From a virus: DNA of 40,801 bases. Position numbers and translations under genes: made by a program. The stretch covers positions 1 to 40,801 of IMG/VR virus record IMGVR_UViG_3300029448_000107, one strand, 5' to 3'. Positions 3,024 through 16,925 of this stretch are shown piece after piece. The notes below the pieces were generated by a model that saw nothing but the letters and a program-made list of their open reading frames with translations, was not told the DNA's origin and made no database searches. Numbering within the stretch: the stretch's first letter is position 1; each line of letters opens with the position of its first letter.

Positions 3024-3025
3024 TT

Positions 3026-3133
3026 ATGAGTTGGCTGGAAGACTATAATGGTGATGGTGCTAGATGGTGGCACATGATCGTTATATTGATTCCCGTCATT
3101 GGCTTTTTTGTGTATGGTTTTTTCTTGCGTTAA
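3026..3133 (+). CDS. 35-residue single-TM protein
   Basis: The ATG at 3026 follows AAGG at 3014-3017 with good spacing and lies just after the stop of the holin-like gene. The product has a short charged N terminus with two Trp (SWLEDYNGDGARWW) and one membrane segment, HMIVILIPVIGFFVYGFF, ending in Leu-Arg. It is the last gene before the promoter and attP region. Tiny single-TM proteins in lysis cassettes can be holin regulators (antiholins or pinholins). This is inferred from position and size alone. A longer reading frame from 2939 overlaps the holin gene and is unlikely. Confidence 0.55.
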   Translation: MSWLEDYNGDGARWWHMIVILIPVIGFFVYGFFLR

Positions 3134-3160
3134 ACTTTATGTCCACCCAAATAAAAAAAA
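3131..3160 (+). promoter_or_regulatory. Putative phage RNA polymerase promoter P1 (upstream of attP and int)
   Basis: Copy one of a recurring element: AAACTTTATGTCCACCCA followed by an A-rich tract. The nine-base core GTCCACCCA is at 3141-3149. It matches exactly the cores at 4265, 7003 and 16906, all on the same strand and between transcription units. It starts at the stop codon of the lysis cassette and would drive attP and int in the free phage. No other intergenic copy was found by eye. Confidence 0.7.
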
Positions 3161-3161
3161 C

Positions 3162-3190
3162 TTGATTACTTAAATCCCCACGTATATCCT
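3162..3190 (+). promoter_or_regulatory. Possible host sigma70-type promoter upstream of the half tRNA
   Basis: TTGATT at 3162-3167 and TATCCT at 3185-3190 are separated by 17 bases, with four of six matches to each consensus box. Initiation would fall about 30 bases upstream of the tRNA-like segment at 3225. Its interest is that after integration this side would sit in front of the reconstituted host tRNA-Leu gene. Such weak matches occur by chance in AT-rich DNA. Confidence 0.35.
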
Positions 3191-3309
3191 TTGCGGTTCT
3201 GGAGTCGCTCACACGCTATCCCCAGCCAGTGTGGTGGAATTGGTAGACACACGGGATTCAAAATCCCGATAAGTCTTTAAAAACAACCACTTACAAACCG
3301 CAAGGGATA
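3185..3309 (+). repeat. Inverted repeat flanking the attP core, putative integrase arm sites
   Basis: TATCCTTTGCGGTT at 3185-3198 is matched 13 of 14 by the reverse complement of AACCGCAAGGGATA at 3296-3309. The midpoint of the pair (3247) coincides with the midpoint of the tRNA-like segment (3247.5); the gaps to it are 26 and 25 bases. A second short pair, GGAGTC at 3201-3206 and GACTCC at 3319-3324, is also inverted. Such flanking repeats are typical of arm-type binding sites of tyrosine integrases. Binding is not shown. Confidence 0.65.
3225..3270 (+). other. attP: attP core: 5' half of a tRNA-Leu gene
   Basis: These 46 bases fold as the first half of a leucine tRNA: acceptor 5' strand GCCAGTG, TG, a D arm closed by GTG/CAC around GAATTGGTAGA, then an anticodon arm CGGGA-TTCAAAA-TCCCG at 3252-3268 with anticodon CAA. 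The variable arm, T arm and acceptor 3' strand are absent; the sequence diverges after 3270. So this is not a functional tRNA gene but a phage copy of a host tRNA segment, as expected of attP beside an integrase. Integrases of this type often recombine in the anticodon arm, whose inverted stem would supply the core sites around a 7-bp loop. It sits 77 bases upstream of int. Confidence 0.8.
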
Positions 3310-3347
3310 GTTAAAAGTGACTCCTTAAACTAAATAAGGAGAAAACT

Positions 3348-4208
3348 ATGACTGTTACCATCGATAAATATTGCGAAGAAAACGCAAGAAACATCTGGTC
3401 AAACGAAGAAAACGCTCATAAAAGCTACAGAAAGATAGTTCTTTTTTCTAAATTTTCTGATTTTGACACACGCTTAATAACTGAGTATCTACCATCCCAC
3501 GTTTATTCTTTTTTTAATTTTTTAGAAGATGAATTAGACTTTTCCGATGCGACAATAAACAGATATCACTCAGCATTAAACTCTGTATTCAAACACTACA
3601 ATCATCAACATAAAACTGACATTTTACCCAAAGTCTCTTGGAAAAAAGAAGACCAAGGGAGAGTACGTTTTTTTTCAGAGACAGAAATAAATCAACTATT
3701 ACTTTTTTTTAACAAATCTATTCATCCTTGGATTGCAGATTATGTACTTTTCATGCTTAAAACGGGTATGAGGCGAGGAGAAGTAAATGGCATTGGTTTG
3801 ACTAAAGAACAAGTCGGCAAGAATGGTTGTTATGGGACAATTTTTATTGACCACAAAACTGGAAGAAAAGCAGTCCATCTTAAAAAGACAAAGAACAATG
3901 ATGATCGAATTGTACCTTTAAGTGAGACAGCAGAAGCGGCTTTAGCAAATTTAGATTTTTGTCCTTCTAAGTATTTTAGACATCATGCTTATTATGATTC
4001 ATGGAGATATGCAAGAGAAAAGATTTGCCCAAATGATCATACGTTTGTATCACACGTATGCAGACATACGGCTGGCACTAATCTTGCTTCATCTAAATAT
4101 AACGATACACAAATTGGGAGATTTCTTGGGCATAAATCGCCTTTGACAACTAAAAAATATGTACACGAAGATCGAGAGACTACCTTGAAAATGGTAGATT
4201 CTCTCTAG
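3348..4208 (+). CDS. int: Tyrosine recombinase / phage integrase
   Basis: 286 residues. The N-terminal 100 are a SAM-like core-binding region (ATINRYHSALNSVFKHYN). The catalytic domain carries every active-site residue: R142 in TGMRRGEV, the beta-hairpin Lys near 182 (KKTKNNDDRIVPL), H236 and R239 in SHVCRHTAGT, H262 in LGHKS and the nucleophile Y271 in KKYVHED. The ATG at 3348 follows AAGGAG with good spacing. It would recombine the adjacent half tRNA-Leu with the host tRNA gene, making the phage temperate. No excisionase is recognisable nearby. The gene is bracketed by promoter P1 upstream and an intrinsic terminator right after the stop. Confidence 0.93.
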   Translation: MTVTIDKYCEENARNIWSNEENAHKSYRKIVLFSKFSDFDTRLITEYLPSHVYSFFNFLEDELDFSDATINRYHSALNSVFKHYNHQHKTDILPKVSWKKEDQGRVRFFSETEINQLLLFFNKSIHPWIADYVLFMLKTGMRRGEVNGIGLTKEQVGKNGCYGTIFIDHKTGRKAVHLKKTKNNDDRIVPLSETAEAALANLDFCPSKYFRHHAYYDSWRYAREKICPNDHTFVSHVCRHTAGTNLASSKYNDTQIGRFLGHKSPLTTKKYVHEDRETTLKMVDSL

Positions 4209-4216
4209 AAAAACTA

Positions 4217-4248
4217 GCCACCTCAGTTAAACGGGGTGGCTTTTTTTT
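4217..4248 (+). terminator. Intrinsic terminator after int
   Basis: Stem GCCACC (4217-4222) pairs with GGTGGC (4235-4240), followed by eight T (4241-4248), nine bases after the int stop. The next promoter copy starts eight bases downstream, so int and the polymerase gene are separate transcription units. Confidence 0.85.
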
Positions 4249-4255
4249 AGGCATA

Positions 4256-4284
4256 AAACTTTGTGTCCACCCATTGTATTGAAA
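4256..4284 (+). promoter_or_regulatory. Putative phage RNA polymerase promoter P2 (upstream of its own gene)
   Basis: AAACTTTGTGTCCACCCA, core GTCCACCCA at 4265-4273. The upstream AAACTTT is shared with P1 and TTTGTGTCCACCCA with P4. It lies between the int terminator and the polymerase start codon at 4324, which would make polymerase expression self-reinforcing. No clear sigma70 promoter was seen in this gap, so first expression may come from read-through or elsewhere. Confidence 0.72.
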
Positions 4285-4323
4285 TTTGAATATGCACCGA
4301 AAGAGAACAAGGGAGAGACATAG

Positions 4324-6954
4324 ATGAGCAACAAAGACTACACAGAGCAAATTTTGAGAGAAGAAGTAATGTTGGACAGGGGAACTTTAAGATTTCGTAA
4401 TAAAGAAGACCGACAGCAATCTAAGTCCAAGTCTATTATTTATATTAATAAAATTGAACAAGCCTTAGAAAAAGTTATAGAAGGACTAAAGAATGATATA
4501 GAAGAAGTTGAACAAGCGTCATCTGGTAGGAGACCACTTTGGTTGACTGAAATCAAAGATTTGTGTCTTGATAAAATCGTCTTTCAGGGTCTCAATTGTT
4601 TTGCCGATGCCGCTGGTGCTACTGAAAAATCTAGCTTAAATACCGTAATAAATAAAATAGGAAAACGCATTGAAGCTGAGAAATTACTTTTACTTATCGA
4701 CAATTTAGAGGATAGGACTTACGTTAATAAAAAGGGCGAGACAAAAAAGTTTAGCGTAAAAAATGATATTAAGAAAAAGGCATTTGAACATTCTGGAGTT
4801 TATGAGAAGAGAATTTCTTATGCTAAACACCTTTCAAATTTACAAGGTGTTATATCACCAAATTGGAGTATTTCTAGAAGAACTCATGTGGCTACTCCGA
4901 TATACAATGCAATTTTAAAATATTCAAAGTTATTCGATAAGCGAACAATTCACGGTTTTAAAAATACAAAAATATATCTTGAGTATAAACCTGAGATTCA
5001 AAAAGAAATTGAAAATGAATTAAACAGAGTGGATTGGATGAAACCACTTTGGGATTTTATGTGGGTTGAACCTAGAGATTGGACAAGTATGTATGAGGGT
5101 GGTTACTTAACACCTCGTCTTTCTGGTTTATGCCGAATGGTCAAGCAGAGTACCTTTAAGCAAGAAGAACAGATAAGAAATGATTTTGAAAAAGCAAAGC
5201 GACTAGGGACACTTCCTAAGTATGCCCTCGCTTTAAATGCGCTACAAAAAGTACCCTTAAAGATTAATAAAAGATTAGTAGAGATAGTTGAGTATTGTTG
5301 GAAGAACGATATTCGTGTGGGTAGTAAATTTCCAGTTAAAAAAATATACGAAGAAATGCCAAAGTTATCTGTAGAAGATTGGCGCAAATTAAGTAAAGAG
5401 GCAAAAGCTCGTCACGTATTTGCCTCGAAGAAAATTATAAGTAGAAATAGTGAAGCTAGATCTAACAGAGATATTATGGCTAGAGATCTTGCAACTGCTA
5501 AAGAAAATTTCAATAGGATTTTCTGGATTGTCTGGAACTTAGATCATCGCATGAGGTTTTATCCTATGACTTCTCTTAATTATCACAGAGATGATCACAT
5601 TAAATCGTGGTTTCTTTTAGGTAATGGTAAAAAGATAGATCTAACAAATGATCATTGGTTAAGAATTCATTTAGCGAATACAGGTGATTTTGAAAAGATC
5701 AGTAAAAAATCTTTAGACGATAGAATTCAGTGGGTAGCAGACAACGAATATTTTATTATGGAAATTGCCAGAGATCCTGAAGGTACAGTAGACGATTGGT
5801 CGCAAGCTGATAAACCATTCCAATTTTTAGCCGCTTGTATTGAGTACAGTAATTATATAACTACTACTGAAAATGGAGAGGATTACATTTGCCATTTAGC
5901 ACCCGCACTTGATGGTCAAAATTCTGGTTGTCAGCATTACAGTGCCGCATCAAGAGATAAAACCACAGGAGATTTAGTTGGTCTTGTACCTAGTGACCGA
6001 CCAAAAGATGTTTATCGAAAGTTAGCTGACTTAGTAAATGCAGAATTAATTAAAATTAGCAAAGAAAGAAAAAAACATGAAGGTGAAACCCAAGAGGATT
6101 TTGAAGAACGATTAAATTATATAGACAAATGGTTAGCATTCGGTGTAACCCGAAAGCACCTCAAGACAAACTGCATGACCTATGTTTACTCAAGCAAACT
6201 GTATGGATTTCAAAAGCAAATCAAAAAAGACATCATGGATGAAGAAGATCGAGAAATACATGAGTCTGGAGATCCTAATAGAACTCACTCTTGGGGTAGC
6301 GAAAAAGAGCAAAAAGCCGCTTGTTTAGTTTTAGCTAGGATATCTTTTGATTGTGTTCAACAAGTTCTTACGAGTGCGAAAGAAGGCATGGAGTTTTTTA
6401 TTGAGCTTGCAAGTGCGCTCGCAAAAGAAAACAAACCTGTTTCTTGGAGAACTCCGATTGGTTTTCCAGTGGTTCAAAAGTACACAAAAAATAATGTAGT
6501 AAAAATCAAATGTTTTCTTTACGACATGGAAATTAAAAAGTTAAAACGTAGTCAAATAACACTCAAAAACGAAAGTGATCGTAATGGAGAAAAAGCTACT
6601 GCAAATCCAATAGATCCTTTTGCAAGTCGAAATGGAATTTCTCCTAATGTCATTCACTCATATGATGCAAGTCATATGGCACTAACAATATTGGAATTAA
6701 AAGAACAAGGAGTGAATGATTTTATGATGATACATGATTCTTTTTCCGTCTTACCTGAACATAGTTGGTTGCTGTATGACATTGTGAGAGAAATGTTTGT
6801 ATATCAATATCAAGATCACTGTATGTACATGAATTTATACAAGTCAGTTATAGCTAAATTAAAAGATCCTGATGTTCTTAAAAATTTAAAATTTCCAACA
6901 AAAGGTGATTTAGATCTTAACTTAATAAAACAATCTGACTACTGCTTTTCCTGA
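4324..6954 (+). CDS. T7-type single-subunit DNA-directed RNA polymerase
   Basis: 876 residues, close to the 883 of T7. Landmarks in order: the WNLDHRMRFYP block (T7 DWRGRVY), motif A at LDGQNSG with catalytic D530, motif B in GVTRKHLKTNCMTYVYSS with R610, K614 and Y622 (T7 R627, K631, Y639), and motif C MIHDSF with D805 (T7 D812). The C terminus YCFS mirrors T7 FAFA. The base after Y622 encodes Ser where T7 has Gly640. The specificity-loop region (about 720-740, YTKNNVVKIKCFLYDMEIKK) differs from T7 at the positions that read the promoter, fitting a distinct promoter. It transcribes middle and late phage genes. GGGAGAG precedes the ATG. Confidence 0.95.
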   Translation: MSNKDYTEQILREEVMLDRGTLRFRNKEDRQQSKSKSIIYINKIEQALEKVIEGLKNDIEEVEQASSGRRPLWLTEIKDLCLDKIVFQGLNCFADAAGATEKSSLNTVINKIGKRIEAEKLLLLIDNLEDRTYVNKKGETKKFSVKNDIKKKAFEHSGVYEKRISYAKHLSNLQGVISPNWSISRRTHVATPIYNAILKYSKLFDKRTIHGFKNTKIYLEYKPEIQKEIENELNRVDWMKPLWDFMWVEPRDWTSMYEGGYLTPRLSGLCRMVKQSTFKQEEQIRNDFEKAKRLGTLPKYALALNALQKVPLKINKRLVEIVEYCWKNDIRVGSKFPVKKIYEEMPKLSVEDWRKLSKEAKARHVFASKKIISRNSEARSNRDIMARDLATAKENFNRIFWIVWNLDHRMRFYPMTSLNYHRDDHIKSWFLLGNGKKIDLTNDHWLRIHLANTGDFEKISKKSLDDRIQWVADNEYFIMEIARDPEGTVDDWSQADKPFQFLAACIEYSNYITTTENGEDYICHLAPALDGQNSGCQHYSAASRDKTTGDLVGLVPSDRPKDVYRKLADLVNAELIKISKERKKHEGETQEDFEERLNYIDKWLAFGVTRKHLKTNCMTYVYSSKLYGFQKQIKKDIMDEEDREIHESGDPNRTHSWGSEKEQKAACLVLARISFDCVQQVLTSAKEGMEFFIELASALAKENKPVSWRTPIGFPVVQKYTKNNVVKIKCFLYDMEIKKLKRSQITLKNESDRNGEKATANPIDPFASRNGISPNVIHSYDASHMALTILELKEQGVNDFMMIHDSFSVLPEHSWLLYDIVREMFVYQYQDHCMYMNLYKSVIAKLKDPDVLKNLKFPTKGDLDLNLIKQSDYCFS

Positions 6955-6972
6955 GTTCTCCCAACCCCCTTT

Positions 6973-6998
6973 AGCCCTCTCAATGAGGGCTTTTTTTT
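6973..6998 (+). terminator. Intrinsic terminator after RNA polymerase
   Basis: AGCCCTC (6973-6979), loop TCAAT, GAGGGCT (6985-6991), running into an eight-T tract at 6991-6998. A perfect stem with a textbook U tract, just after the polymerase stop. Promoter P3 begins at once afterwards. Confidence 0.9.
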
Positions 6999-7025
6999 AT
7001 GTGTCCACCCAGAGAATACATTTAA
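6996..7025 (+). promoter_or_regulatory. Putative phage RNA polymerase promoter P3 (replication operon)
   Basis: TTTATGTGTCCACCCAGAGAATACA with core GTCCACCCA at 7003-7011. It overlaps the end of the terminator T tract and lies 40 bases before the SSB start, so it would drive the operon from SSB to DUF3310 (7051-13253). Confidence 0.72.
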
Positions 7026-7050
7026 TTTTTTTAAAACAGGAGAGAGACAA

Positions 7051-7587
7051 ATGGGAGCTAGACAAAAGTTCACATCACCGCAAGGTACAGCAATTTACCC
7101 ACACCTTAACAAACCAGATACACAGTTTAATCCAGATGGTATTTATAAAGTTGATTTATCAATGGAGGACGCTGAGTCATTAGAAACACTTTGTCAAAAT
7201 GCCGCGATATCTGAGTTTGGTAACAAGGCAAAGTTTAGGATGCCGTTTCGTCAAGACGAGGAAAGCGGTCAGACAATTATGAAAGTTAAAAGTAAGTACG
7301 CACCAAAGATTTATGATTCTACTGGTCAACTTATGCTTGGCGATCAAATACCCCAATTGTGGGGAGGCTCAACTCTAAAAGTTGGTGGATACATTACAAC
7401 TTACAGCGTGAGTGGTTCAAAAGGAGTTTCACTTCAGCTTACAAAAGTTCAAGTAATTAACCCCGTGTCTGGAAATAGTGATGATGGTTTTGACTCAGTA
7501 GACGGTGGCTACGTTGCTGAAGAAATCACTGAAGAGGCATTTGAAGATGACGAACAAGTTGAAGTTGAAAAAGCAGATAGATTCTGA
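7051..7587 (+). CDS. Single-stranded DNA-binding protein, T7 gp2.5-like
   Basis: 178 residues. The first 140 form a predicted OB-fold with the gp2.5-type opening (FTSPQGTAIYPHLNKPDTQFNPDGIYKVDL), a mid-segment YAPKIYDSTGQ and LWGGSTLKVGGYI. The last 35 residues are strongly acidic (EEITEEAFEDDEQVEVEKADRF) and end in Phe, the hallmark tail by which gp2.5 contacts polymerase and helicase. It would coat single-stranded DNA and coordinate the replisome. GGAGAGAG precedes the ATG. It is the first gene of the replication operon behind P3, and its 3' end overlaps the endonuclease start. Confidence 0.88.
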   Translation: MGARQKFTSPQGTAIYPHLNKPDTQFNPDGIYKVDLSMEDAESLETLCQNAAISEFGNKAKFRMPFRQDEESGQTIMKVKSKYAPKIYDSTGQLMLGDQIPQLWGGSTLKVGGYITTYSVSGSKGVSLQLTKVQVINPVSGNSDDGFDSVDGGYVAEEITEEAFEDDEQVEVEKADRF

Positions 7588-7978
7588 GAAACGAGGAATT
7601 AAATTTGGTTATCGGAGCGGGTTAGAAAAGACGATTGCATCTCAGATTCGCGGAAAAGGTTTACAGGTTCAGTATGAGGCAGAAAAAATTGTTTACTCAA
7701 TACCTACGTCATTACATACGTACACACCTGATTTCAAAGTACCTACTCAGCGCGGATTCTTTTATGTTGAAAGCAAGGGAAGGTTAATGCTTGCAGATCG
7801 TAAAAAGCACATTCTTATCAAAACACAATTTCCAAAGATTGATATAAGGTTTGTGTTTTCTAACTCAAAACAAAAACTCTATAAAGGATCGCCTACATCG
7901 TATGCAGATTGGTGTATTAAGCATGGATTTAAGTACGCTGACAAGGAGATCCCAGAAGAGTGGCTGTCTGAAAAATAG
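7547..7978 (+). CDS. Endonuclease I, Holliday-junction resolvase (T7 gp3-like)
   Basis: 143 residues from the ATG at 7547; the frame is open upstream to 7505, but this start gives an N terminus close to T7 length. It aligns with T7 endonuclease I throughout: YRSGLEKT (E27, T7 E20), HTYTPDF (D62, T7 D55), YVESKG (E75 and K77, T7 E65 and K67), then DRKKHILIKTQFPKIDIRFVFS and KLYKGSPTSYADWC. The residue at the T7 E35 position is Gln42, a difference at a functionally important site. It resolves branched replication intermediates and can degrade host DNA. It overlaps the SSB gene by 41 bases; a hairpin terminator follows. Confidence 0.9.
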   Translation: MTNKLKLKKQIDSEKRGIKFGYRSGLEKTIASQIRGKGLQVQYEAEKIVYSIPTSLHTYTPDFKVPTQRGFFYVESKGRLMLADRKKHILIKTQFPKIDIRFVFSNSKQKLYKGSPTSYADWCIKHGFKYADKEIPEEWLSEK

Positions 7979-7994
7979 ACAGTAAGGAGAGCGA

Positions 7995-8019
7995 GATGCC
8001 TCGAAAGGGGCATCTTTTT
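7995..8019 (+). terminator. Weak intrinsic terminator between endonuclease I and primase-helicase
   Basis: GATGCC (7995-8000) pairs with GGCATC (8009-8014), loop TCGAAAGG, followed by five T. The short U tract and downstream genes on the same strand suggest partial termination that tunes expression. Confidence 0.65.
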
Positions 8020-8032
8020 CAAGGTTGGGATT

Positions 8033-9652
8033 ATGGAACAGACACACGAAGATTCAAATTTTGTAAGACACATTCCATGTGAGAAGTGTGGGTCAAAAGA
8101 TAACGCTGGTTTATTTGATGACGGTCACATTTATTGTTTTGGATGTCATCATTATGAGCCGCCAGATGGTAGTGATAAAAGTAATTATTATACTGTGGGT
8201 AGGCGACCAGCTAGTTTAATTGATGGTTATTATTCAGCTTTACCGACAAGAGGTATTAAAGAAGAAACTTGTAGAAAGTTTGATTATCAAATTACAGATT
8301 CATACAACGGAAGACCTCATCAAATAGCGAACTATAGAAACAGTGATGGTCAAGTCGTTGCACAAAAGTTACGCGATGCTAAGAAGAATTTTTCTATTTT
8401 AGGCGAAGCAAAACAAATGACTTTATTCGGTCAACACCTTTGGAACGGTGGTAAGAAGTTACCGATCTGTGAGGGTGAGATTGACACGATGACAGTCTGT
8501 CAAATGACAGGTTTAAAATATCCTTGCGTTGGACTTCCTAATGGTGCGTCTAATGCAAAAAAAGCAATCTTAGCCCAATGGGATTGGCTTCTAAATTTTG
8601 AAGAATTAATTTTAATATTTGATCAAGACGAGGCTGGTCAAAGAGCCGCTAGAGAGGTCGCAGAGTCTTTACCTGTAGGTAGAGTCAAAATAGCACAGCT
8701 TCCCCACAAGGACGCGAATGAGTGCCTACAGAGAGGCGATGGTAAAGCTATTGTAGATGCAATTTGGAACGCTAAAGAATGGCGACCAGATGGCATTGTT
8801 TCTTCCGCTGATTTTGAAGACATGATTGGTGAGCGAGAAAAAGATTCATTAATTACTTACCCATTCCCAAAGCTACAAGATATGACCAGAGGAATTAGAA
8901 CTGGAATTATTACTATCTGCGCTGGAAGTGGTGTAGGAAAAACTACTCTTATGCGTGAGGTCGCTTATCACTTAATGAACCTAAAACATGAAGGATCTGA
9001 AGTTTGCAAATGTGGACTTATGATGCTTGAGGAAAACTCATTACATAGTGTACGTGGGCTTGTCGGTATTCACATAGACAAAAATATTAATGATCCAAAA
9101 GTGCCTACTTCAAAAGAAGAAATTGTCACGGCTTTTAGAGACTGCTTTAAAGAACGTCACATATCTTTATTTAATCACTTTGGATCTACGACAGTCGAAA
9201 CAATAGTTCAGCGCATACAATTCATGGCTTTAGCTGAAGGATGTAAGGTAATTATTCTTGATCACATTTCGATGATCGTGGGCGGTCTTACAGGCAATCT
9301 CAAGCAAGTCTCAGAGCGTCAACTTATAGATTCAATAATGACTACTCTCAGAATGCTAGTACAAGAGCTTGGCATTACTTTATTTCTAGTTAGCCATTTG
9401 AAAAGACCAGAGGGAAGTAAGGGACACGAAGATGGAGCCAGAGTTCGTTTAGGAGAACTAAGGGGCAGTCACAGTATTGCTCAATTGTCTGACTTTTGTA
9501 TTGGGATGGAAAAAGATCCTGAGAACCCCAATAGCAATTTGAGATTTCTACAAGTGATGAAAAATAGATTTACTGGAGAAACTGGTGAAGCAGATACGCT
9601 TGAATACGATTCATTCACAGGAAGACTTTCAGTAGTTGAAGAAAGATTTTAA
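8033..9652 (+). CDS. Bifunctional primase-helicase, T7 gp4-like
   Basis: 539 residues. The N-terminal zinc-binding module has C16, C19, C35 and C38 (CEKCG, YCFGC). The TOPRIM primase core follows with ICEGEIDTMTV and LIFDQDEAGQRAA. The C-terminal RecA-like helicase shows Walker A at 297-305 (AGSGVGKTT), the acidic block LMMLEEN, Walker B VIILDHISMIVGG, and SHLKRPEG with RLGELRGSHSI and the arginine-finger region MKNRFTGETG. It unwinds the fork 5' to 3' as a hexamer and lays primers. The C terminus ends VVEERF, an acidic-aromatic tail as in gp4. It follows a weak terminator and is followed closely by a small gene behind AAGGAGAG. Confidence 0.94.
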   Translation: MEQTHEDSNFVRHIPCEKCGSKDNAGLFDDGHIYCFGCHHYEPPDGSDKSNYYTVGRRPASLIDGYYSALPTRGIKEETCRKFDYQITDSYNGRPHQIANYRNSDGQVVAQKLRDAKKNFSILGEAKQMTLFGQHLWNGGKKLPICEGEIDTMTVCQMTGLKYPCVGLPNGASNAKKAILAQWDWLLNFEELILIFDQDEAGQRAAREVAESLPVGRVKIAQLPHKDANECLQRGDGKAIVDAIWNAKEWRPDGIVSSADFEDMIGEREKDSLITYPFPKLQDMTRGIRTGIITICAGSGVGKTTLMREVAYHLMNLKHEGSEVCKCGLMMLEENSLHSVRGLVGIHIDKNINDPKVPTSKEEIVTAFRDCFKERHISLFNHFGSTTVETIVQRIQFMALAEGCKVIILDHISMIVGGLTGNLKQVSERQLIDSIMTTLRMLVQELGITLFLVSHLKRPEGSKGHEDGARVRLGELRGSHSIAQLSDFCIGMEKDPENPNSNLRFLQVMKNRFTGETGEADTLEYDSFTGRLSVVEERF

Positions 9653-9662
9653 GGAGAGATAT

Positions 9663-9986
9663 ATGTCTAGATTAGAAGATAAATTTACAAAGTTCCATGC
9701 CCAGAACCCTCACGTTTGGAGAGAGTTTAAAAGGTTAGCTTTTGATGCCTTAGAAAAAGGACACAGGAATTATTCAGCAAAATTAATTATCGAAATGATT
9801 CGATGGGAATCAAAAATTGAAACAGAAAAAGTAGATGCTTTTAAAATTTCAAATGAGATCACCTCTTTTTACCCAAGGATGTTTCACAATAGTTTTCCTC
9901 AACTCAAAGGATTTTTTAAGACAAGAGAAGTAGAAGAGTTTGATCCAGAAAAACACTCTCCTAAACAAAAAGAGTTGGAGTTATAG
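9663..9986 (+). CDS. Conserved phage protein, possible DNA-binding
   Basis: 107 residues from the ATG at 9663, chosen for the AAGGAGAG site just upstream; the longer frame from 9636 overlaps the helicase. The pattern DKFTKFHAQNPHVWREFKRLAFDALEKGHRNYSAKLIIEMIRWES ... KISNEITSFYPRMFHNSFPQLKGFF is one I know from many phages and some bacteria as a conserved uncharacterised family. It is helical and basic in the centre, compatible with nucleic-acid binding. It lies between helicase and DNA polymerase in the replication operon. No enzymatic motif is visible. Confidence 0.8.
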   Translation: MSRLEDKFTKFHAQNPHVWREFKRLAFDALEKGHRNYSAKLIIEMIRWESKIETEKVDAFKISNEITSFYPRMFHNSFPQLKGFFKTREVEEFDPEKHSPKQKELEL

Positions 9987-9987
9987 A

Positions 9988-11778
9988 ATGACTATCTATC
10001 GCAGAGTCATATGGGATATAGAGACAAACGGTTTGTTGAAAACAATGGACAAAATACATTGCATTGGCATCCAGTGTTTAGACACGTTGGAGTACACAGG
10101 ATTTAAACCTGATCAAATAACTGAGTCATTAGACATCATTAAAAATGCTGAATGGAATATAGGACATAACACAATTGGGTTTGACATTCCCGCTGTACAA
10201 AAGATTTACCCAGATTGGAAACCAAAAGGGAAATCCATAGATACTTTAGTGTTGTCTAGGCTATTTAAAGCCGATTTATTTAATGATGATTTTACATCAA
10301 AAAGTTTACCCGAAGGATTTCAAAAAAAGCTCTATGGATCTCATTCTTTAAAGGCTTGGGGGATGCGCTTGTCTGATCACAAAATTGATTACTCAGGAGG
10401 CTTTGAGACCTTCAACGAAGATATGTTTACCTATATGGAACAAGATGTGAGACTTACTACCCTCCTGTACACAAAGCTCATGCAAGACAAAGACTTTACA
10501 CAAAAGACTATTGATCTTGAGCATGACTTGGCAGAAATATGTTATCGAATTGGAAACAATGGATGGACATTCAATATGCAAAAGGCCAGTAAACTTTATG
10601 GCAAATTGTCACAGCGAAGGTTAGATCTTAGTAACGAGCTAGAAACTTTATTTGAACCGTGGGAAATCAAAACACCTTTTACTCCCAAACGAAACGATAA
10701 AAAACGTGGATACGAAGCTGGAGTAACAATTAACAAAATTAAGACTGTCTATTTCAACCCGAACTCTCGTAAGCACATAGCTAAATGTCTGAAAGACAAA
10801 TACAAGTGGAAACCAGAGAAATGGACACCTACTGGAGAGCCTAAAGTTGATGAAAATATTTTAATTAATCTTCCTTATCCAGAAGCTAAAAAATTAGCTG
10901 AGTTTTTCTTAGTACAAAAGAGAATCGCTATGTTGGCAGAAGGAGAGCAAGCATGGATGCGTCTTACTGATGACGATGGAAAACTTAGACACACTATTAT
11001 CAGTGGATCTTGCGTTTCTCGTAGAGCAAGCCATCGATCACCAAACCTTGCTCAAGTACCTTCTACTCGCGCTGTGTACGGAAAAGAGTGCAGAGAGCTA
11101 TTTGGTGTACCTGATGGATGGAAGCTCGTAGGAAGCGATTTAAGCGGTTTAGAACTGCGTTGTCTTGCGGCTGTATTAGACGATGGTGGAGACTATGGTA
11201 AGCAAATTATGGAAGGTGATATACATACTCACAATATGCTCATGGCTGGCATCGATGATTCAGATGGAAACGGCAGAGCAAGATCAAAATCTTTTATTTA
11301 CTCGCTCATCTTTGGCGGGGGTGATGCCCTCATAGGAAAGATTGTAGGTGGTAACGCAAGTGCGGGTAAAAAACTAAAAAATCAATTTAACCAAAATGTA
11401 CCCGCTTTCAAAAGTTTACAGGAGGAACTACGAGCGGCTTACAAAAAGAAAGGATTTATTAAAAGCATTAGCGGAAGCAAGTTGTATTGCAGAAGCGAAC
11501 ACAGGCTTTTGTCCCAACTTTTACAAAGCTCTGGAGCGATCATTGCTATGGAGTGGTTACGATTGATGGACAAGAGAATTCAAGACGAGAAATTAGATAG
11601 CAAGATAGTAGCTTGGGTACATGACGAGGTTCAAATTGCGTGTCCAGCTACGGAGGCAAATTATGTCGGAAATAATATCACTAGCAGAACTGCGGAAGAG
11701 GCGGGAAAGGCGTATCGCTTTACTATCCCGATCGAGAGTGAATTTAACATTGGAGAAAATTGGGCAACGACACACTAG
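9988..11778 (+). CDS. Family A DNA polymerase with 3'-5' exonuclease (T7 gp5-like)
   Basis: 596 residues from the ATG at 9988, the first start after the preceding stop. The exonuclease has D10 and E12 (WDIETNG), NIGHNTIGFDIPA and YMEQDVRLT. The polymerase has motif A GSDLSGLELR (D384, E389), motif B R430, K434, Y438 and F442 (RARSKSFIYSLIFGGG), and motif C WVHDEVQ (D546, E547). The C terminus IGENWATTH mirrors T7. It is over 100 residues shorter than T7 gp5, largely because the stretch before VYFNPNSR, where T7 inserts its thioredoxin-binding domain, is short. So processivity may not depend on host thioredoxin. The Tyr438-Phe442 pair is unusual (T7 Tyr526-Tyr530). Confidence 0.95.
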   Translation: MTIYRRVIWDIETNGLLKTMDKIHCIGIQCLDTLEYTGFKPDQITESLDIIKNAEWNIGHNTIGFDIPAVQKIYPDWKPKGKSIDTLVLSRLFKADLFNDDFTSKSLPEGFQKKLYGSHSLKAWGMRLSDHKIDYSGGFETFNEDMFTYMEQDVRLTTLLYTKLMQDKDFTQKTIDLEHDLAEICYRIGNNGWTFNMQKASKLYGKLSQRRLDLSNELETLFEPWEIKTPFTPKRNDKKRGYEAGVTINKIKTVYFNPNSRKHIAKCLKDKYKWKPEKWTPTGEPKVDENILINLPYPEAKKLAEFFLVQKRIAMLAEGEQAWMRLTDDDGKLRHTIISGSCVSRRASHRSPNLAQVPSTRAVYGKECRELFGVPDGWKLVGSDLSGLELRCLAAVLDDGGDYGKQIMEGDIHTHNMLMAGIDDSDGNGRARSKSFIYSLIFGGGDALIGKIVGGNASAGKKLKNQFNQNVPAFKSLQEELRAAYKKKGFIKSISGSKLYCRSEHRLLSQLLQSSGAIIAMEWLRLMDKRIQDEKLDSKIVAWVHDEVQIACPATEANYVGNNITSRTAEEAGKAYRFTIPIESEFNIGENWATTH

Positions 11779-12064
11779 GCATTTAGGTAAAATTACAGAC
11801 GAAGAGTTAGAACATTTATGTTCATTCTGGTTAGTTATAGATAAAGCATCTAGAAATCCATTCAAATTAAAATCTAACTTTGCAAGGGAAGCGGCACTGT
11901 ATGTCGCTACGTGTGCATCTTTGGGTTTTATATCTAACCAAATTGAATATAACGAATTCATTAACGTGTGGGGATCGACCCCCGCTGGAGAAGATTTTTT
12001 GGAGGAACTAAATGAAATCCTTGACGTTATCTACCGTTGGAAAAACCCCAACCCTACTAATTGA
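11663..12064 (+). CDS. Hypothetical protein overlapping the polymerase 3' end
   Basis: 133 residues. The ATG at 11663 lies within the last 116 bases of the polymerase gene and is preceded by GGAGG at good spacing (ACGGAGGCAAATT), so out-of-frame overlap is likely real; no ATG or clear alternative exists nearer the polymerase stop. The N-terminal part is very basic (ELRKRRERRIALLSRSRV). The C-terminal half (AREAALYVATCASLGFI ... FINVWGSTPAGEDFLEEL) looks like a winged-helix arrangement with the WGSTPAGEDFL turn. A DNA-binding role is possible. I do not recognise a named family. Its 3' end overlaps the exonuclease start by 53 bases. Confidence 0.65.
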   Translation: MSEIISLAELRKRRERRIALLSRSRVNLTLEKIGQRHTRHLGKITDEELEHLCSFWLVIDKASRNPFKLKSNFAREAALYVATCASLGFISNQIEYNEFINVWGSTPAGEDFLEELNEILDVIYRWKNPNPTN

Positions 12065-12782
12065 TGCTGATTTATTTTTGTATCGTGCGGCTTGCATAGC
12101 CGAAGAAGCTACGGATTGGGGAGATGACATTTGGTCTTTATCAACTGATTTAAAAATTGCTAAATCTGTTTTTACTGATCAAATTAATTCATTTTATGAT
12201 CGTTTAAAAAGCACTGATTCCATCATGTGTTTATCAGATTCTCAAAATAATTTTAGAAAACAAGTATGCGATAAATACAAAAGTAACCGAAGGAATACTC
12301 GAAAACCTGTAGGTTATAAAGCACTGGTTAAATGGTGCGAAAGCACTTTTGTTAGCCATAGGCAGAACAATTTAGAGGCAGACGATGTAATGGGAATACT
12401 AGGTAGTAATCCAAGTTTTTCAACAATCATTGTTTCCGATGATAAAGATCTGAAAACTGTCCCATGCACTCTCTATCGACCAGCCAGTGACGAACTGATG
12501 AAGATAAGTTTAGAGGAAGCAGATAGTAATTTTTACGCTATGACCCTACAGGGAGATTCTACAGATGGTTTCTCTGGATGCCCAAGAGTAGGCGCGGTTA
12601 CTGCAAGGAGAATCCTTGGTACAAGACCAGATTGGTCTCTGGTTGAAAAGGCTTTTGTAAAAGCTGGTTTAGATCGAGACCATGCAATACAACAAGCTCG
12701 TCTAGCAAGAATCTTGAGAATGGACGATTACAACCTTGATTATGGTGTTCAACTTTATGAGCCACCCAGACTAACCGCATAA
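12012..12782 (+). CDS. 5'-3' exonuclease, T7 gp6-like (FEN family)
   Basis: 256 residues. Metal-binding landmarks of the FEN/5' nuclease fold appear in order: LLIDADLFLYRAA near residue 15, the helical-arch segment DKYKSNRRNTRKPVGYKALVKW, NLEADDVMG near 119, IIVSDDKDLKTVP near 137, and the helix-hairpin-helix region QGDSTDGFSGCPRVGAVTARRIL. In T7 this enzyme removes RNA primers, helps make recombination ends and degrades host DNA. The ATG at 12012 is preceded by TTGGAGGAACTAA, a strong ribosome site inside the upstream gene. Part of the replication operon. Confidence 0.92.
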   Translation: MKSLTLSTVGKTPTLLIDADLFLYRAACIAEEATDWGDDIWSLSTDLKIAKSVFTDQINSFYDRLKSTDSIMCLSDSQNNFRKQVCDKYKSNRRNTRKPVGYKALVKWCESTFVSHRQNNLEADDVMGILGSNPSFSTIIVSDDKDLKTVPCTLYRPASDELMKISLEEADSNFYAMTLQGDSTDGFSGCPRVGAVTARRILGTRPDWSLVEKAFVKAGLDRDHAIQQARLARILRMDDYNLDYGVQLYEPPRLTA

Positions 12783-12795
12783 GGAGGCAGTTTTA

Positions 12796-13253: not shown

Positions 13254-13254
13254 T

Positions 13255-13333: not shown

Positions 13334-13453
13334 TCTACACAGACTTAAAGTCTCTTTATATTACTTTTTAAGTACAATATGTCCTTCTTAAAGCGCCAAA
13401 TTTAATTTAATTTAATTTATATGTCAACTTACAATAAGTTATTTGTAGTAAAT

Positions 13454-13847: not shown

Positions 13848-14051
13848 TTAAGTTCTCCTTAAAGATCGAATACCATACTCCAATTTACTTAAAGTTGTAA
13901 CAGAAATGTTGTGTCCGTAAGTAAATCTCCGAATGATATTTATGTGTACGCCTGATTTATCAACCAGCCTATTTTTATTCTTCATTTTAATTACATCCAT
14001 CCTTAGTTTTTCAACATACTTCCAAATGTCTGTCTCTGTTTCAATAGTCAT
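13848..14051 (-). CDS. Small HTH protein, candidate transcription regulator
   Basis: 67 residues from the ATG at 14051, with GGAGA seven bases upstream; a TTG one codon earlier is less well spaced. Residues 30-65 (RLVDKSGVHINIIRRFTYGHNISVTTLSKLEYGI) match the Cro/CI-type helix-turn-helix pattern (LxxxSGVxxxTIxxFxxGxxxxxxxTLxKLExAL). No oligomerisation or cleavage domain is attached, so it is Cro-sized rather than a LexA/CI-type repressor. As the clearest regulator in a temperate phage it is the best candidate for lysis-lysogeny control. A terminator hairpin inside the overlapping upstream mini-gene may gate its expression. Confidence 0.7.
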   Translation of the reverse strand: MTIETETDIWKYVEKLRMDVIKMKNKNRLVDKSGVHINIIRRFTYGHNISVTTLSKLEYGIRSLRRT

Positions 14052-14139
14052 CAAAAAATCTCCTTACTATCAGTTCTAAAAAAAGGGCGACTCCAAAAAA
14101 GCCGCCCATAACAACACCTAATAAAAATAAACCTTCCAT
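14041..14139 (-). CDS. 32-residue hydrophobic peptide overlapping a terminator
   Basis: The ATG at 14139 overlaps the stop of the previous gene (TAATG) and has GGAGGAGG upstream, so translation would be coupled. The product starts MEGLFLLGVVMGGFFGVALFLELIV, one membrane segment, and ends RRFFDDY. The frame passes through an intrinsic terminator (14078-14107) and ends inside the start region of the HTH gene. It may be a real small membrane protein, a leader peptide that controls read-through, or both. The alternative is that the hairpin is the only real feature here. Confidence 0.45.
   Translation of the reverse strand: MEGLFLLGVVMGGFFGVALFLELIVRRFFDDY
14078..14107 (-). terminator. Intrinsic terminator inside the 32-codon mini-gene
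   Basis: Read leftward: GGGCGGC (14107-14101), loop TTTTTTGGA, GTCGCCC (14091-14085), then seven T (14084-14078). A seven-pair stem with one G-U pair and a U tract. It lies just upstream of the HTH regulator gene. Confidence 0.7.
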
Positions 14140-14432
14140 TACTTTTCCTCCTCCGCAATCTCCTCAACGAAAAAATATAATTCATCACATTCACCAAAAT
14201 GTAAGCGGTAATTCTTATATTGTTTTTTCTTTGGATCTGGTATTGCACAACCCTTTTCGTCCCTAAGATATCCGTGTTTATCATTGTCATCCTTAAGGTA
14301 TTTTGGTTGCCAATCGTTAATATCCACCATACAAGGAGACTCTAAATCTACCTCTAGTTCAGCACCATATTTAGCTTTAGTATATAAAGATATAGCTTCA
14401 AACAACTGAAATCCCATTAATCTAATTCTCAT
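14139..14432 (-). CDS. Hypothetical acidic protein
   Basis: 97 residues. An N-terminal helix (MRIRLMGFQLFEAISLYTKAKYG) is followed by ELEVDLESP, a lysine/aspartate-rich middle (KYLKDDNDKHGYLRDEKG, PDPKKKQYKNYRL) and an acidic end (CDELYFFVEEIAEEEK). There is no membrane segment or known motif. It is coupled at both ends: ATGA overlap with the upstream gene and TAATG with the mini-gene downstream. Acidic small proteins in early clusters often bind host enzymes, but nothing specific supports that here. Confidence 0.65.
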   Translation of the reverse strand: MRIRLMGFQLFEAISLYTKAKYGAELEVDLESPCMVDINDWQPKYLKDDNDKHGYLRDEKGCAIPDPKKKQYKNYRLHFGECDELYFFVEEIAEEEK

Positions 14433-14656
14433 GCTATTTCTCCTTGAAATCCATACGCATCTATCTGGTTCTTTTCAATCCATTCAAGATTTATTTCTGC
14501 TTGCCTTTTGGCTTGTTCAATTTGTTTCATAGACAAATGCAAAGCTAATCCTTCAGCCATCTTTAGGCACTCTCTACTTTCTTTTTTAGTTGGCGCGGTT
14601 ACTGCTAAAGTTAAAGCTACAACTAATGCTTCATAACCGTTTTTAATCTCTTTCAT
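14429..14656 (-). CDS. Hypothetical helical protein
   Basis: 75 residues, predicted mainly alpha-helical: GYEALVVALTLAVTAPTKKESRECLKMAEGLALHL, then MKQIEQAKRQAEINLEWIEKNQIDAYGF. The first part is moderately hydrophobic but amphipathic, more like a helical hairpin than a membrane span. It overlaps both neighbours by four bases. The start has AAGGAGAAAGAA upstream. I do not recognise the family. Confidence 0.65.
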   Translation of the reverse strand: MKEIKNGYEALVVALTLAVTAPTKKESRECLKMAEGLALHLSMKQIEQAKRQAEINLEWIEKNQIDAYGFQGEIA

Positions 14657-14937
14657 CTTTCTTTCTCCTTTTGATTTAAAGTCATTGAATATTGTTTGCA
14701 GATTTTAAATGCTTGACGTTGAATTTCGCGGCTAACTTGCCAAAGTTTGCGGCCACTATTTATTCCATAACCCTTAATACGCGCATCACCGCAATGATCA
14801 AGCCATTGATGAAAAGCCGTAATAACTAAGCCGTCATCCTCTGCACGTTCTTTATCAAACATACTGTCTATCCAAACCTGATATATGTCGTTGTGAGTTG
14901 CCATTTCGACATCTACCGCTAGTGGAATTGTTTTCAT
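14653..14937 (-). CDS. Hypothetical protein
   Basis: 94 residues, with GGAGGTGG upstream and TAATG overlap with the preceding gene's stop. Features visible: ATHNDIYQVWIDSMFDKERAEDDGLVITAFHQWLDHCGDARIKGYGINSG, then a basic helix (KLWQVSREIQRQAFKICKQY) and a charged tail ending KEKER. No catalytic motif, membrane segment or export signal is recognised. It is a member of the coupled leftward cluster. Function unknown. Confidence 0.65.
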   Translation of the reverse strand: MKTIPLAVDVEMATHNDIYQVWIDSMFDKERAEDDGLVITAFHQWLDHCGDARIKGYGINSGRKLWQVSREIQRQAFKICKQYSMTLNQKEKER

Positions 14938-15248
14938 TACTCCACCTCCTTTTTGTTTTGTCTCAAAGATTCAGAGTTTGATGCAAAGTTTTCGAAGTAT
15001 TTTTGAACGCTTGAAAATCTGAAAGTCTTATCAAAATGCTGATAACAATTTTTAGATTTTAAATACTCGCTGATTGCGTTGTGAGCCTCATCCAAATACT
15101 TCTCGGCCTCATAAAGTTCTTGGTCATCTCTAAACTGCTCCATCTGCCCTGACACAAAGTAGATTGCATCGTATAGAGTCATCAAGTGATCGGCTTTTCT
15201 CTGATCAATTTTTAAAGGAAATCCCGCAAGTTTAATCTTGTTGCTCAT
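14937..15248 (-). CDS. Hypothetical helical protein
   Basis: 103 residues, largely helical and charged: QRKADHLMTLYDAIYFVSGQMEQFRDDQELYEAEKYLDEAHNAISEYLKSKN, then a region with HFDKTFRFSSVQKYFENFA and a basic tail. AAGGAGG lies upstream of the ATG, and the start overlaps the upstream gene by ATGA. There are no transmembrane segments. The family is not recognised. Confidence 0.65.
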   Translation of the reverse strand: MSNKIKLAGFPLKIDQRKADHLMTLYDAIYFVSGQMEQFRDDQELYEAEKYLDEAHNAISEYLKSKNCYQHFDKTFRFSSVQKYFENFASNSESLRQNKKEVE

Positions 15249-15565
15249 CCCGCCACCTCCTTAGAACTAACATCAATACCGCTGTCATCTATTGATATAT
15301 GCTCGAAACGACCTGATTTTGTCAGATGACTATCTATCTGAACAAAATATGCATTGCTAGAGTCAAGATCTTCTTCAATCAAGGCTTTAATATCACTAGC
15401 CCACCATTTAAGCATCTCTTGAGACCTTTTACTCTCAATCAAATCATCTTCACGCCATCCAGAAAATGCGCTCGACTTGCATTTAGAAAGTAACTCTTGT
15501 CGAATCATTTCGAGACCTAATTTATTTACTGTATGCTTTTGAAACTTTGTATTTTCTTCTAACAT
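15245..15565 (-). CDS. Hypothetical protein
   Basis: 106 residues from the ATG at 15565, chosen because AAGGAGAG precedes it; the frame is open further upstream but runs through a terminator hairpin. The sequence has helical parts (KLGLEMIRQELLSKC, RSQEMLKWWASDIKALIEED) and a beta-like end (NAYFVQIDSHLTKSGRFEHISIDDSGIDV). No known motif. It is the first gene downstream of an internal terminator in the leftward cluster, so its level is probably lower than that of the genes before it unless it has its own promoter. Confidence 0.65.
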   Translation of the reverse strand: MLEENTKFQKHTVNKLGLEMIRQELLSKCKSSAFSGWREDDLIESKRSQEMLKWWASDIKALIEEDLDSSNAYFVQIDSHLTKSGRFEHISIDDSGIDVSSKEVAG

Positions 15566-15581
15566 TTTTCTCTCCTTAATT

Positions 15582-15615
15582 AAAAAACGGCTTCTATGGG
15601 TAACCACAAAAGCCG
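15582..15615 (-). terminator. Intrinsic terminator within the leftward cluster
   Basis: Read leftward: CGGCTT (15615-15610), a 16-base loop, AAGCCG (15593-15588), then six T (15587-15582). It falls right after the stop of the gene ending at 15626 and splits the cluster into a promoter-proximal and a distal part. Confidence 0.75.
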
Positions 15616-15625
15616 CTCGTTCTGT

Positions 15626-15901
15626 TTAAAGTAAATTTAGTTGTTCTGCGATTTCTTTTGAAACGTAGCCAGAAACGCTGACAACATCACACGGATCACC
15701 AAACAACGGACAAGAATTAAACTTGGGATTATCTAAACTGTCGTAATCATAATCCCAGTCTAAAACGTCCGAATGACAATTGATGAAACCATTGAATAGC
15801 TGAGAATCTTCCCGATTAAAAGAAGACTCATCGCCATTAATTAAAGCTGACATTGCCCAAGTTGGGAAATTGTCGTATTTATATTTTAGTTTAAGGCTCA
15901 T
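15626..15901 (-). CDS. Hypothetical acidic protein (YDNFPTWAMSALINGD type)
   Basis: 91 residues from the ATG at 15901, which overlaps the upstream stop as ATGA. The opening KYDNFPTWAMSALINGDESS is a pattern I associate with small, very acidic proteins on phages and plasmids; it is followed by FNGFINCHSDVLDWDYDYDSLDNPKFNSCPLFGDPCDVVSVSGYV. Overall charge is strongly negative, with several Asp-Tyr repeats and four cysteines. DNA mimicry or protein binding could be imagined, but nothing demonstrates it. A terminator follows. Confidence 0.65.
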   Translation of the reverse strand: MSLKLKYKYDNFPTWAMSALINGDESSFNREDSQLFNGFINCHSDVLDWDYDYDSLDNPKFNSCPLFGDPCDVVSVSGYVSKEIAEQLNLL

Positions 15902-16182
15902 TCGTCCACCCCCACAAATTTCAACACACAATCACTCTTGAGCTTCTCTGGGGCGATGATTGCCTTTTTGACTACCTGACCATCAACATAGAATCGGAAC
16001 TCCTGAGAGCCGTCCTGATGCGTTCTATGTGTGGTGCAATGGCTAACGAATGAGTGAGAGTTTTGCGCTGATGTGCCGACCTTTACATCGACTGAACAGT
16101 TTTCCCTCGCTCCCCACGATTTCCCGCTTTGATATATACAAGCCTGAACTTGATTCCATATAGGGTAACTTCTAGATCCCAT
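15898..16182 (-). CDS. Hypothetical protein
   Basis: 94 residues from the ATG at 16182, with TAAGGAGG upstream; the longer frame from 16251 would run through a hairpin. The sequence is beta-rich: SRSYPIWNQVQACIYQSGKSWGARENCSVDVKVGTSAQNSHSFVSHCTTHRTHQDGSQEFRFYVDGQVVKKAII. The His/Thr-rich centre is unusual. No metal-binding or enzyme signature can be assigned with confidence. Its leader repeats the 15-base sequence found in front of the first gene of the cluster. Confidence 0.65.
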   Translation of the reverse strand: MGSRSYPIWNQVQACIYQSGKSWGARENCSVDVKVGTSAQNSHSFVSHCTTHRTHQDGSQEFRFYVDGQVVKKAIIAPEKLKSDCVLKFVGVDE

Positions 16183-16188
16183 AATTGC

Positions 16189-16203
16189 CTCCTTAGATAA
16201 GAC
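16189..16203 (-). repeat. 15-base leader repeat, copy A
   Basis: CTCCTTAGATAAGAC at 16189-16203 is identical to 16739-16753. Read leftward both give GTCTTATCTAAGGAG and hold the ribosome site, in front of the genes starting at 16182 and 16733. The bases around are also similar, so the leader was probably duplicated with its gene or is a shared translational control site. Confidence 0.7.
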
Positions 16204-16228
16204 ATTGATTAAGTTAAGTTCGCGACAA

Positions 16229-16274
16229 TTGCCACGCAATAGCACCCTCAAGAGAAGGTGCTAAAGCTTGGCAA
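16229..16274 (-). other. Intergenic hairpin after the first leftward gene
   Basis: Two nested perfect stems: TTGCCA (16229-16234) with TGGCAA (16269-16274), and TAGCACC (16240-16246) with GGTGCTA (16257-16263), separated by symmetric five-base internal loops. It abuts the stop of the gene ending at 16275. There is no T tract on either side, so RNA processing, stability or protein binding are more likely than termination. Confidence 0.6.
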
Positions 16275-16733
16275 CTATCTGAGTTCTAATTCGAAACTAT
16301 GAATGCTGAAGTCTGAATTATTGACAACTTCCTTGACTGCATCCTCTATGATTTCTGGATCATCATTAATGGACTCGACAACATTGCTTGAGATATCGCT
16401 AGTGTCTAGGTGAGTGTTTATTAGGTCGTCCCAAGGTAGATTGTCTAGCGCATCGTCAACAAGTTTCTCCAGTCTTTCCTCTACAATAGGAGCGATCATT
16501 GAGCGGATAAGATGCTCATTTGAGTTTGATTGTAGGTTATGGATGTATTTCCGCAAAATATTATTAACCATGTTTAGGCTATCTATTAATTGCTGTTCAA
16601 TGCTTCGATCTTCTGCCATGCGCTTCTGGTCTTCTACTGAATAACCCCAACTAGCAAGGCCGTGGTTTTTTTCGTACTCTTCCTTGGAGTCGTAAGCTCC
16701 AAATCCTTTTTCTTCTTCGTTTAAGTTTTCCAT
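16275..16733 (-). CDS. Hypothetical acidic protein, first gene of the leftward cluster
   Basis: 152 residues, very acidic (many Glu and Asp) with little aromatic content. The opening MENLNEEEKGFGAYDSKEEYEKNHG is followed by predicted helices (QLIDSLNMVNNILRKYIHNL, SMIAPIVEERLEKLVDDALDNL) and an acidic end (IEDAVKEVVNNSDFSIHSFELEL). There is no export signal or membrane segment. AAGGAG precedes the ATG. As the promoter-proximal gene of an early-type cluster it may be a host-takeover protein; this is inference from position and charge. The family is not recognised. Confidence 0.7.
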   Translation of the reverse strand: MENLNEEEKGFGAYDSKEEYEKNHGLASWGYSVEDQKRMAEDRSIEQQLIDSLNMVNNILRKYIHNLQSNSNEHLIRSMIAPIVEERLEKLVDDALDNLPWDDLINTHLDTSDISSNVVESINDDPEIIEDAVKEVVNNSDFSIHSFELELR

Positions 16734-16738
16734 GTTGT

Positions 16739-16753
16739 CTCCTTAGATAAGAC
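16739..16753 (-). repeat. 15-base leader repeat, copy B
   Basis: Identical to 16189-16203; holds the ribosome site of the gene starting at 16733. Confidence 0.7.
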
Positions 16754-16786
16754 GTTAATTAATTAACTGTGTATTCATACAGTATG
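16754..16786. promoter_or_regulatory. Operator-like palindromes in the leftward leader
   Basis: GTTAATTAATTAAC at 16754-16767 is a perfect 14-bp palindrome. CATACAGTATG at 16776-16786 is a perfect 5-1-5 inverted repeat. Both lie between the candidate leftward promoter and the first gene, where a repressor could block transcription. The HTH protein encoded at 13848-14051 is an obvious but untested candidate to bind. The first palindrome is of low complexity and could be chance. Confidence 0.4.
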
Positions 16787-16813
16787 CATATATCACCTGT
16801 CTGGCGATGGGCA

Positions 16814-16844
16814 ATTATAAACATAGATCGTAAGAGAATGTAAA
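16814..16844 (-). promoter_or_regulatory. Possible sigma70 promoter for the leftward cluster
   Basis: Read leftward: TTTACA (16844-16839), a 19-base spacer, then a perfect TATAAT (16819-16814). The spacer is longer than the ideal 17. It is the only TATAAT with a recognisable partner in the control region on this strand, about 80 bases before the first gene, so early transcription by host polymerase is plausible. Confidence 0.45.
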
Positions 16845-16896
16845 GAGTTTATTTATTCTCCTAAAGTCCTTTTTATTAAACTGGATAAAAAGTCTA

Positions 16897-16925
16897 ATGT
16901 TTTGTGTCCACCCATATGATAAAGA
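16897..16925 (+). promoter_or_regulatory. Putative phage RNA polymerase promoter P4 (late operon)
   Basis: AATGTTTTGTGTCCACCCATATGATAAAG, core GTCCACCCA at 16906-16914; TTTGTGTCCACCCA is identical to P2 apart from its first bases. It faces the virion genes and is the only copy ahead of them in this window. A long structured leader of about 400 bases follows. Confidence 0.7.

Follow-up and report, generated by a model that had tools for sequence, protein, structure and literature searches.

Which enzyme reads a short word that recurs, always between genes, in a marine phage genome bearing its own single-subunit RNA polymerase? The question is raised by the IMG/VR virus record IMGVR_UViG_3300029448_000107, a 40.8 kb stretch analysed over its full 40,801 bases (the window hereafter), in which an earlier note had picked out a four-copy element and taken it for the promoter of that polymerase. 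Sequence comparisons make this very probably the correct answer, because the element is conserved beside the polymerase gene throughout a clade of related phages, follows strict rules of strand and position, and varies in its core together with the specificity loop of the polymerase.

The nine-base core GTCCACCCA occurs exactly four times in the window, always on the + strand and always in intergenic DNA (3141-3149, 4265-4273, 7003-7011, and 16906-16914), just as the earlier note had described: four copies between genes on one strand, each with an exact nine-base core. The intergenic share of the window is 4.2%. Dinucleotide shuffles predict 0.12 occurrences of the core, and four copies were reached in none of 100 of them. 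In a look-everywhere test on 1000 Markov shuffles of the intergenic DNA, a 9-mer with at least four G/C never reached four copies, while such a 9-mer was present three times or more in 5 shuffles. The longer 14-mer TTTGTGTCCACCCA starts at 3136, 4260, 6998, and 16901, with 1, 0, 1, and 0 mismatches, respectively, so that the sites listed before (3134, 4259, 7000, and 16903) are real, their positions being off by a few bases. Elsewhere in the window, matches with three mismatches stay at the chance level, and a scan of either strand found no weaker copies above background. Copies 2 and 3 are each immediately preceded by a terminator made of a stem and a T-run (4216-4241 and 6973-6991, respectively), which agrees with the two copies said to follow terminators. 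The copies and the terminators between them are as follows:

3136..3153, + strand: predicted promoter copy 1 (TTTATGTCCACCCA...), upstream of attP (the phage attachment site) and the integrase gene int; predicted start at ~3152-3153
4216..4248, + strand: intrinsic terminator between int and copy 2
4260..4276, + strand: predicted promoter copy 2 (TTTGTGTCCACCCATTG); predicted start at ~4276, with 52 nt from the core end to the polymerase ATG
6973..6999, + strand: intrinsic terminator directly before copy 3
6998..7014, + strand: predicted promoter copy 3 (TATGTGTCCACCCAGAG), before SSB (ATG at 7051) and the replication genes; predicted start at ~7014
16901..16918, + strand: predicted promoter copy 4 (TTTGTGTCCACCCATATG), before the late operon, with a long leader (~390 nt); predicted start at ~16918

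The element and the polymerase lead to each other in database scans. When IMG/VR was scanned for TTTGTGTCCACCCA alone, with the polymerase sequence unused, 118 stretches were recovered, mostly with single matches, as by chance. Four of them (L021, L040, L062, and L051) hold two copies 2.5-2.8 kb apart that flank a related polymerase gene (37-67% identity), and in L099 a copy lies just after a polymerase fragment. The word is, hence, present in related phages, as the earlier note had asked to be checked. From the other side, 80 loci were picked by polymerase sequence alone, and the polymerases long enough to compare, dereplicated at 95% and including that of the window, amounted to 48. The motif [T]TGTCCACC is found upstream of the gene, at the place of copy 2, in 25/25 relatives of the window's loop type, i.e., non-redundant polymerases with K748/R756 (T7 numbering), against a chance rate of 0.65% per locus. 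Its distance to the polymerase ATG is mostly 18-52 nt (143 nt in L140), and in many of these loci the gene is also followed closely by a second copy. Outside the clade, 14 unlike loop types come with enough upstream sequence, and the motif is absent from all of them; L193 shows no convincing flanking word around its polymerase gene.

In whole records the strand rule is equally strict, with TGTCCACCY present in 9 of 10 and all 41 matches lying on the polymerase strand; the tenth is the genome of L170, which bears a variant core. The element is kept beside the polymerase gene down to ~32% polymerase identity within the clade. A maximum-likelihood polymerase tree built without the loop columns groups the carriers in one clade (Shimodaira–Hasegawa-like approximate likelihood ratio test, SH-aLRT, 97), plus the non-carrier L158, and leaves T7, SP6, Syn5, VSW-3, LUZ100, and the pelagiphages outside it.

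The polymerase itself aligns with T7 RNA polymerase over its length, and its catalytic residues D530, K614, Y622, and D805 are intact, corresponding to T7 D537, K631, Y639, and D812. The AlphaFold2 model of the protein (predicted local distance difference test, pLDDT, 85.7; predicted template modelling score, pTM, 0.73) finds its best PDB matches among T7 RNA polymerase structures, with template modelling (TM) scores of 0.60-0.68 and a large root-mean-square deviation, so that the positions of the domains differ. A β-hairpin is modelled at 725-748 (strands 725-734 and 739-748), where T7 has its specificity loop, and the loop residues K727, K729, R742, and Q744 occupy T7 positions R746, N748, R756, and Q758. 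In T7, N748 contacts the promoter at -10/-11, R756 at -9, and Q758 at -8 (PMC5937735). On the promoter reading, this hairpin would read the core through K729, R742, and Q744, at T7 positions 748, 756, and 758.

Comparison among relatives indicates that the core co-varies with these promoter-contacting residues, in a fit that is good but not perfect, with L158 and L141-143 as exceptions. Two of three Arg748 lineages (L148 and L149) carry TGTACACC, and L170, with Val748/Ser758, carries four copies of TGTCGTCC. Taking the G of TATAG as +1, in line with the start mapped for VSW-3 (PMC9624206), places the changed base of TGTACACC at -10 and the changes of TGTCGTCC at -8/-9.

Several observations weigh against the promoter reading. 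L157, L158, and L160, which have Arg748 and lie inside the clade, show no recognisable flanking motif. The common core persists in L141-143 despite their Val at 758, which means that the code between loop and core is not one-to-one, and in L170 a change at -9 comes with an unaltered Arg756. Recognition of the variant cores TGTACACC and TGTCGTCC was, moreover, post hoc. The four copies of the window are without a clear TATAG start, leaving the predicted start uncertain by 1-2 nt. Finally, copy 1 is deleted in G001 (IMGVR_UViG_2823148864_000017), whose polymerase is 95% identical: this genome is without the segment at 3025-3153 of the window (129 bp, comprising a 35-codon open reading frame at 3026-3133 and copy 1), with a clean junction, and keeps attP and int. 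Copy 1 is consequently dispensable. A relative with the same polymerase lacking the element, which the earlier note had named as a refutation, does occur at this one site; the other three sites persist in the same genome.

As a promoter, the element would be a site of 17-18 bp, with a fixed core TGTCCACC (about -12/-13 to -5/-6), an A/T-rich stretch (TTTG) ahead of it, and a weak start region. In relatives, CCACC is followed by TATAG, CTATAG, TTTAG, CATTAG, TATTAG, or TAAATG, and these start-like words place +1 at 5-6 nt past CCACC. Transcripts probably begin there, giving predicted starts at about 3152-3153, 4276, 7014, and 16918, and predicted leaders of about 48 nt to the polymerase and 37 nt to SSB.

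The working of the system is proposed by analogy with LUZ100, whose phage promoters phi1/phi2 (AATTACCACACAG...), with starts mapped by RNA sequencing, lie at the same two places around the polymerase gene; in that phage, a positive feedback loop has been proposed to be set off by host read-through past the int terminator (PMC10134795). Host RNA polymerase would likewise read through the int terminator here and make a little phage polymerase; the phage polymerase would then fire copy 2, upstream of its own gene, in a positive feedback, as well as copy 3 for replication, copy 4 for the late genes, and copy 1 for attP/int. LUZ100 is also a temperate T7-like phage with one copy between the int terminator and the polymerase gene and another directly after the gene. 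It differs in its core, in its MarR-like gene, and in its T7-like virion, that of the window being LUZ24-like.

Two other known promoters resemble the element in sequence. The experimentally mapped VSW-3 promoter, TTAATTGGGCCACCTATAG (PMC9624206), is close to TTAGTTATGTCCACCTATAG of clade relatives, CCACC followed by TATAG being present in L184/L185 (TTAGTTATGTCCACCTATAGCG) and L145, and VSW-3 shares the copy directly after the polymerase gene and the few copies per genome. Its core, on the other hand, is GGGCCACC rather than TGTCCACC, and its polymerase is 24% identical and falls outside the clade. The marine phage Syn5, with the promoter ATTGGGCACCCGTAA (PMC3950665), shares a CACCC core and a small number of promoters, but has GGG before CACCC, a promoter inside its polymerase gene, and a polymerase only 21% identical. 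The ATTGGG that precedes (C)CACC in the VSW-3/Syn5 consensus is replaced by TGTGT before CCACC in the window.

With T7 and SP6, the element shares a length of ~17-18 bp and, as predicted, a core read by the specificity loop and a start just 3' of it; with T7 it also shares, if +1 is counted 5 nt past CCACC, the bases C (-9 and -5) and G (-11). The core sequence differs, as does the residue at T7 position 748 (Lys here, Asn in T7). The consensus of T7, T3, and SP6 (CGACTCACTATAG / GTGACACTATAG) is absent, the core being TGTCCACCC with no TATAG in the four copies. The element had been called unlike T7, T3, and SP6, which is right only for the core from -13 to -5, since relatives have a T7-type layout, with a core and a TATAG-like start. 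By sequence, VSW-3 (CCACCTATAG) and Syn5 (CACCC) are closer to the element than T7, T3, and SP6. As the architecture matches the promoters of T7, LUZ100, VSW-3, and Syn5, the element is, on comparison with the T7, SP6, Syn5, and VSW-3 consensus, a new specificity of a known promoter kind rather than a new kind.

Repeated words also flank the polymerase genes of named temperate T7-like phages: CCC[CT]TATTAGAACC in HTVC120P (L218), GGTTGCACATA in BB8 (L219), TTAACCCCCACT in YIMV22061 (L220), and CGATTAGGTTGCACCATAG in CRP-113 (L243). These are likely promoters as well; they occupy the same two places with different words, as expected for orthogonal pairs. Around the polymerase gene of HTVC021P, no obvious shared word was seen by eye. 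A search of the literature collection found no paper on promoters of SAR92 phages, and among the matches listed in a text search for TGTCCACCC, all looked unrelated by title.

Four other functions would also put a repeated word at such places. Operator sites at which a phage repressor or activator controls lysogeny, acting on host-type promoters, would suit a temperate phage (with int and attP) whose sites lie at key control points, and the RNA polymerase gene is the site of MarR control in LUZ100-type temperate phages (PMC10134795). This is very unlikely, given that the core is asymmetric and keeps one orientation in 41/41 matches, unlike dimer operators, that it tracks the specificity loop of the polymerase, and that the window revealed neither a MarR gene nor a clear repressor gene. 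Nor does the unusual sigma factor that would direct host RNA polymerase to these sites seem credible: the spacing to the start codons suits any promoter, but relatives whose polymerase loop differs have another core in that position (TGTACACC and TGTCGTCC), the pattern tracking the phage polymerase, and other T7-like phages bear other words there.

The sequence GTGTC within the core is a T7 primase recognition word, and the T7 primary origin consists of the phi1.1 promoters behind gene 1, in the same place as copy 3. A mainly replicative signal (origin or primase site) is nevertheless highly improbable for a word with only 3-6 intergenic copies per genome, which stand upstream of genes and, in most of the clade, keep a set distance of 18-52 nt to the polymerase ATG; its flanking base, moreover, may be other than G (ATGTCC, TTGTCC, and CTGTCC), and the primase word is therefore not conserved. 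The element could nonetheless serve as an origin in addition to being a promoter. Integrase arm-type sites, or packaging/recombination words, are exceedingly improbable too: copy 1 does lie 75 bp from the attP core and copy 2 behind int, but copies 3 and 4 lie at distances of 3.8 and 13.7 kb, and in G001, which has no copy 1, integrase and attP are retained. On the points counted against each, all four of these readings were judged unlikely, and the promoter of the phage polymerase is the preferred reading.

The genes behind each copy are those expected from the earlier note (int, RNA polymerase, replication, and late genes), as supported by Pfam, by PHROGs for the late module, and by the 44-bp attP identity:

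3225..3268, + strand: attP core, 44 bp identical to nt 1-44 of tRNA-Leu(CAA) of SAR92/Porticoccaceae
3348..4208, + strand: tyrosine integrase gene (Pfam PF00589, E=1.7e-15)
4324..6954, + strand: T7-like single-subunit RNA polymerase of 876 aa (Pfam RNA_pol, E=4e-85)
7051..12782, + strand: replication operon with SSB, endonuclease I, primase-helicase, DNA polymerase A, and 5'-3' exonuclease (Pfam)

At its left end the window holds the last part of a Peptidase_S74-domain tail protein and an endolysin, followed by copy 1, attP, int, a terminator, and copy 2. Then come the RNA polymerase, a terminator, copy 3, and the replication genes from SSB to the exonuclease, and on the right a leftward block of small genes, copy 4, the structural genes, and the tail proteins.

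The attP core points to the host. All 15 genome matches belong to SAR92/Porticoccaceae or Pseudomonadales, so a host of the SAR92 clade is probable. The core is the 5' half of tRNA-Leu(CAA); in most tRNA attachment sites it is the 3' half that is found. On integration, the rebuilt tRNA-Leu(CAA) gene would come to lie behind copy 1, the tRNA losing its own promoter. That promoter may be replaced by TTGATT-15-TATATC (~3164-3191), a host-type sequence that is conserved in phage DNA; a host-type promoter scan of 2900-4324 found no consensus site on the + strand. In G004 (37% polymerase identity), a copy at 26290 lies before int, in the same place as copy 1. At 26290-26700 of G004 (L133:6290-6700), a 5' tRNA half that looks like tRNA-Tyr, on the minus strand, occupies the corresponding attP place.

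In the window, a T7-like polymerase adjoins T7-like replication genes, a trait of Autographiviridae as classed in GenBank records, but the T7-like portal/head module of that family is missing. The portal belongs to phrog_1216, with Pseudomonas phages tf and UFV-P2 (LUZ24/PaP3-like) as the nearest, and the same portal family is present in 12/12 clade genomes examined. With a portal of the LUZ24/PaP3/tf type, the phage should not simply be filed under Autographiviridae. At 17702-36000, a LUZ24/PaP3-like head module is joined to T7-like transcription and replication genes. A search for near-identical DNA among annotated phages gave no match to the window, the nearest named polymerases are only ~28% identical, and a scan of genome contigs for the polymerase revealed no prophage of this kind.

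A broader proposal, put forward tentatively and on balance doubtful, is that the clade represents an unrecognised lineage of temperate marine podoviruses joining T7-type transcription and replication to a LUZ24-like virion, with its own promoter code, in which Lys/Arg at T7 748 selects C/A at ~-10, and with copy 1 letting the phage polymerase transcribe the rebuilt host tRNA-Leu gene at the lysogen junction. The polymerase and the element likely form an orthogonal pair, in a clade without a cultured member in the collections searched, and the natural series of loops and cores (K-C, R-A, and V/S-GT) makes the change of promoter specificity in T7-like polymerases directly testable. The 14-base tag finds such phages in metagenomes, and this phage now has a predicted start-site map and, through its attP core, a link to a SAR92 host.

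Copy 4 has counterparts in G001 (995) and G004 (39504). It is followed at 16918-17310 by a conserved, apparently non-coding leader of ~390 nt, which ends in a GACCCCC block and a (GTT)n run, both kept in G004; Rfam gave no match in the window, the late leader included. The leftward block of small genes at 13454-16733 has no homologues and no promoter copy on its own strand, and G001 is strongly different here. With no copy on their strand, these genes presumably depend on host RNA polymerase for their transcription. The tail protein gene at 37086-40801 contains a repeated, near-identical stretch of ~190 bp (38150-38330 and 40470-40660).

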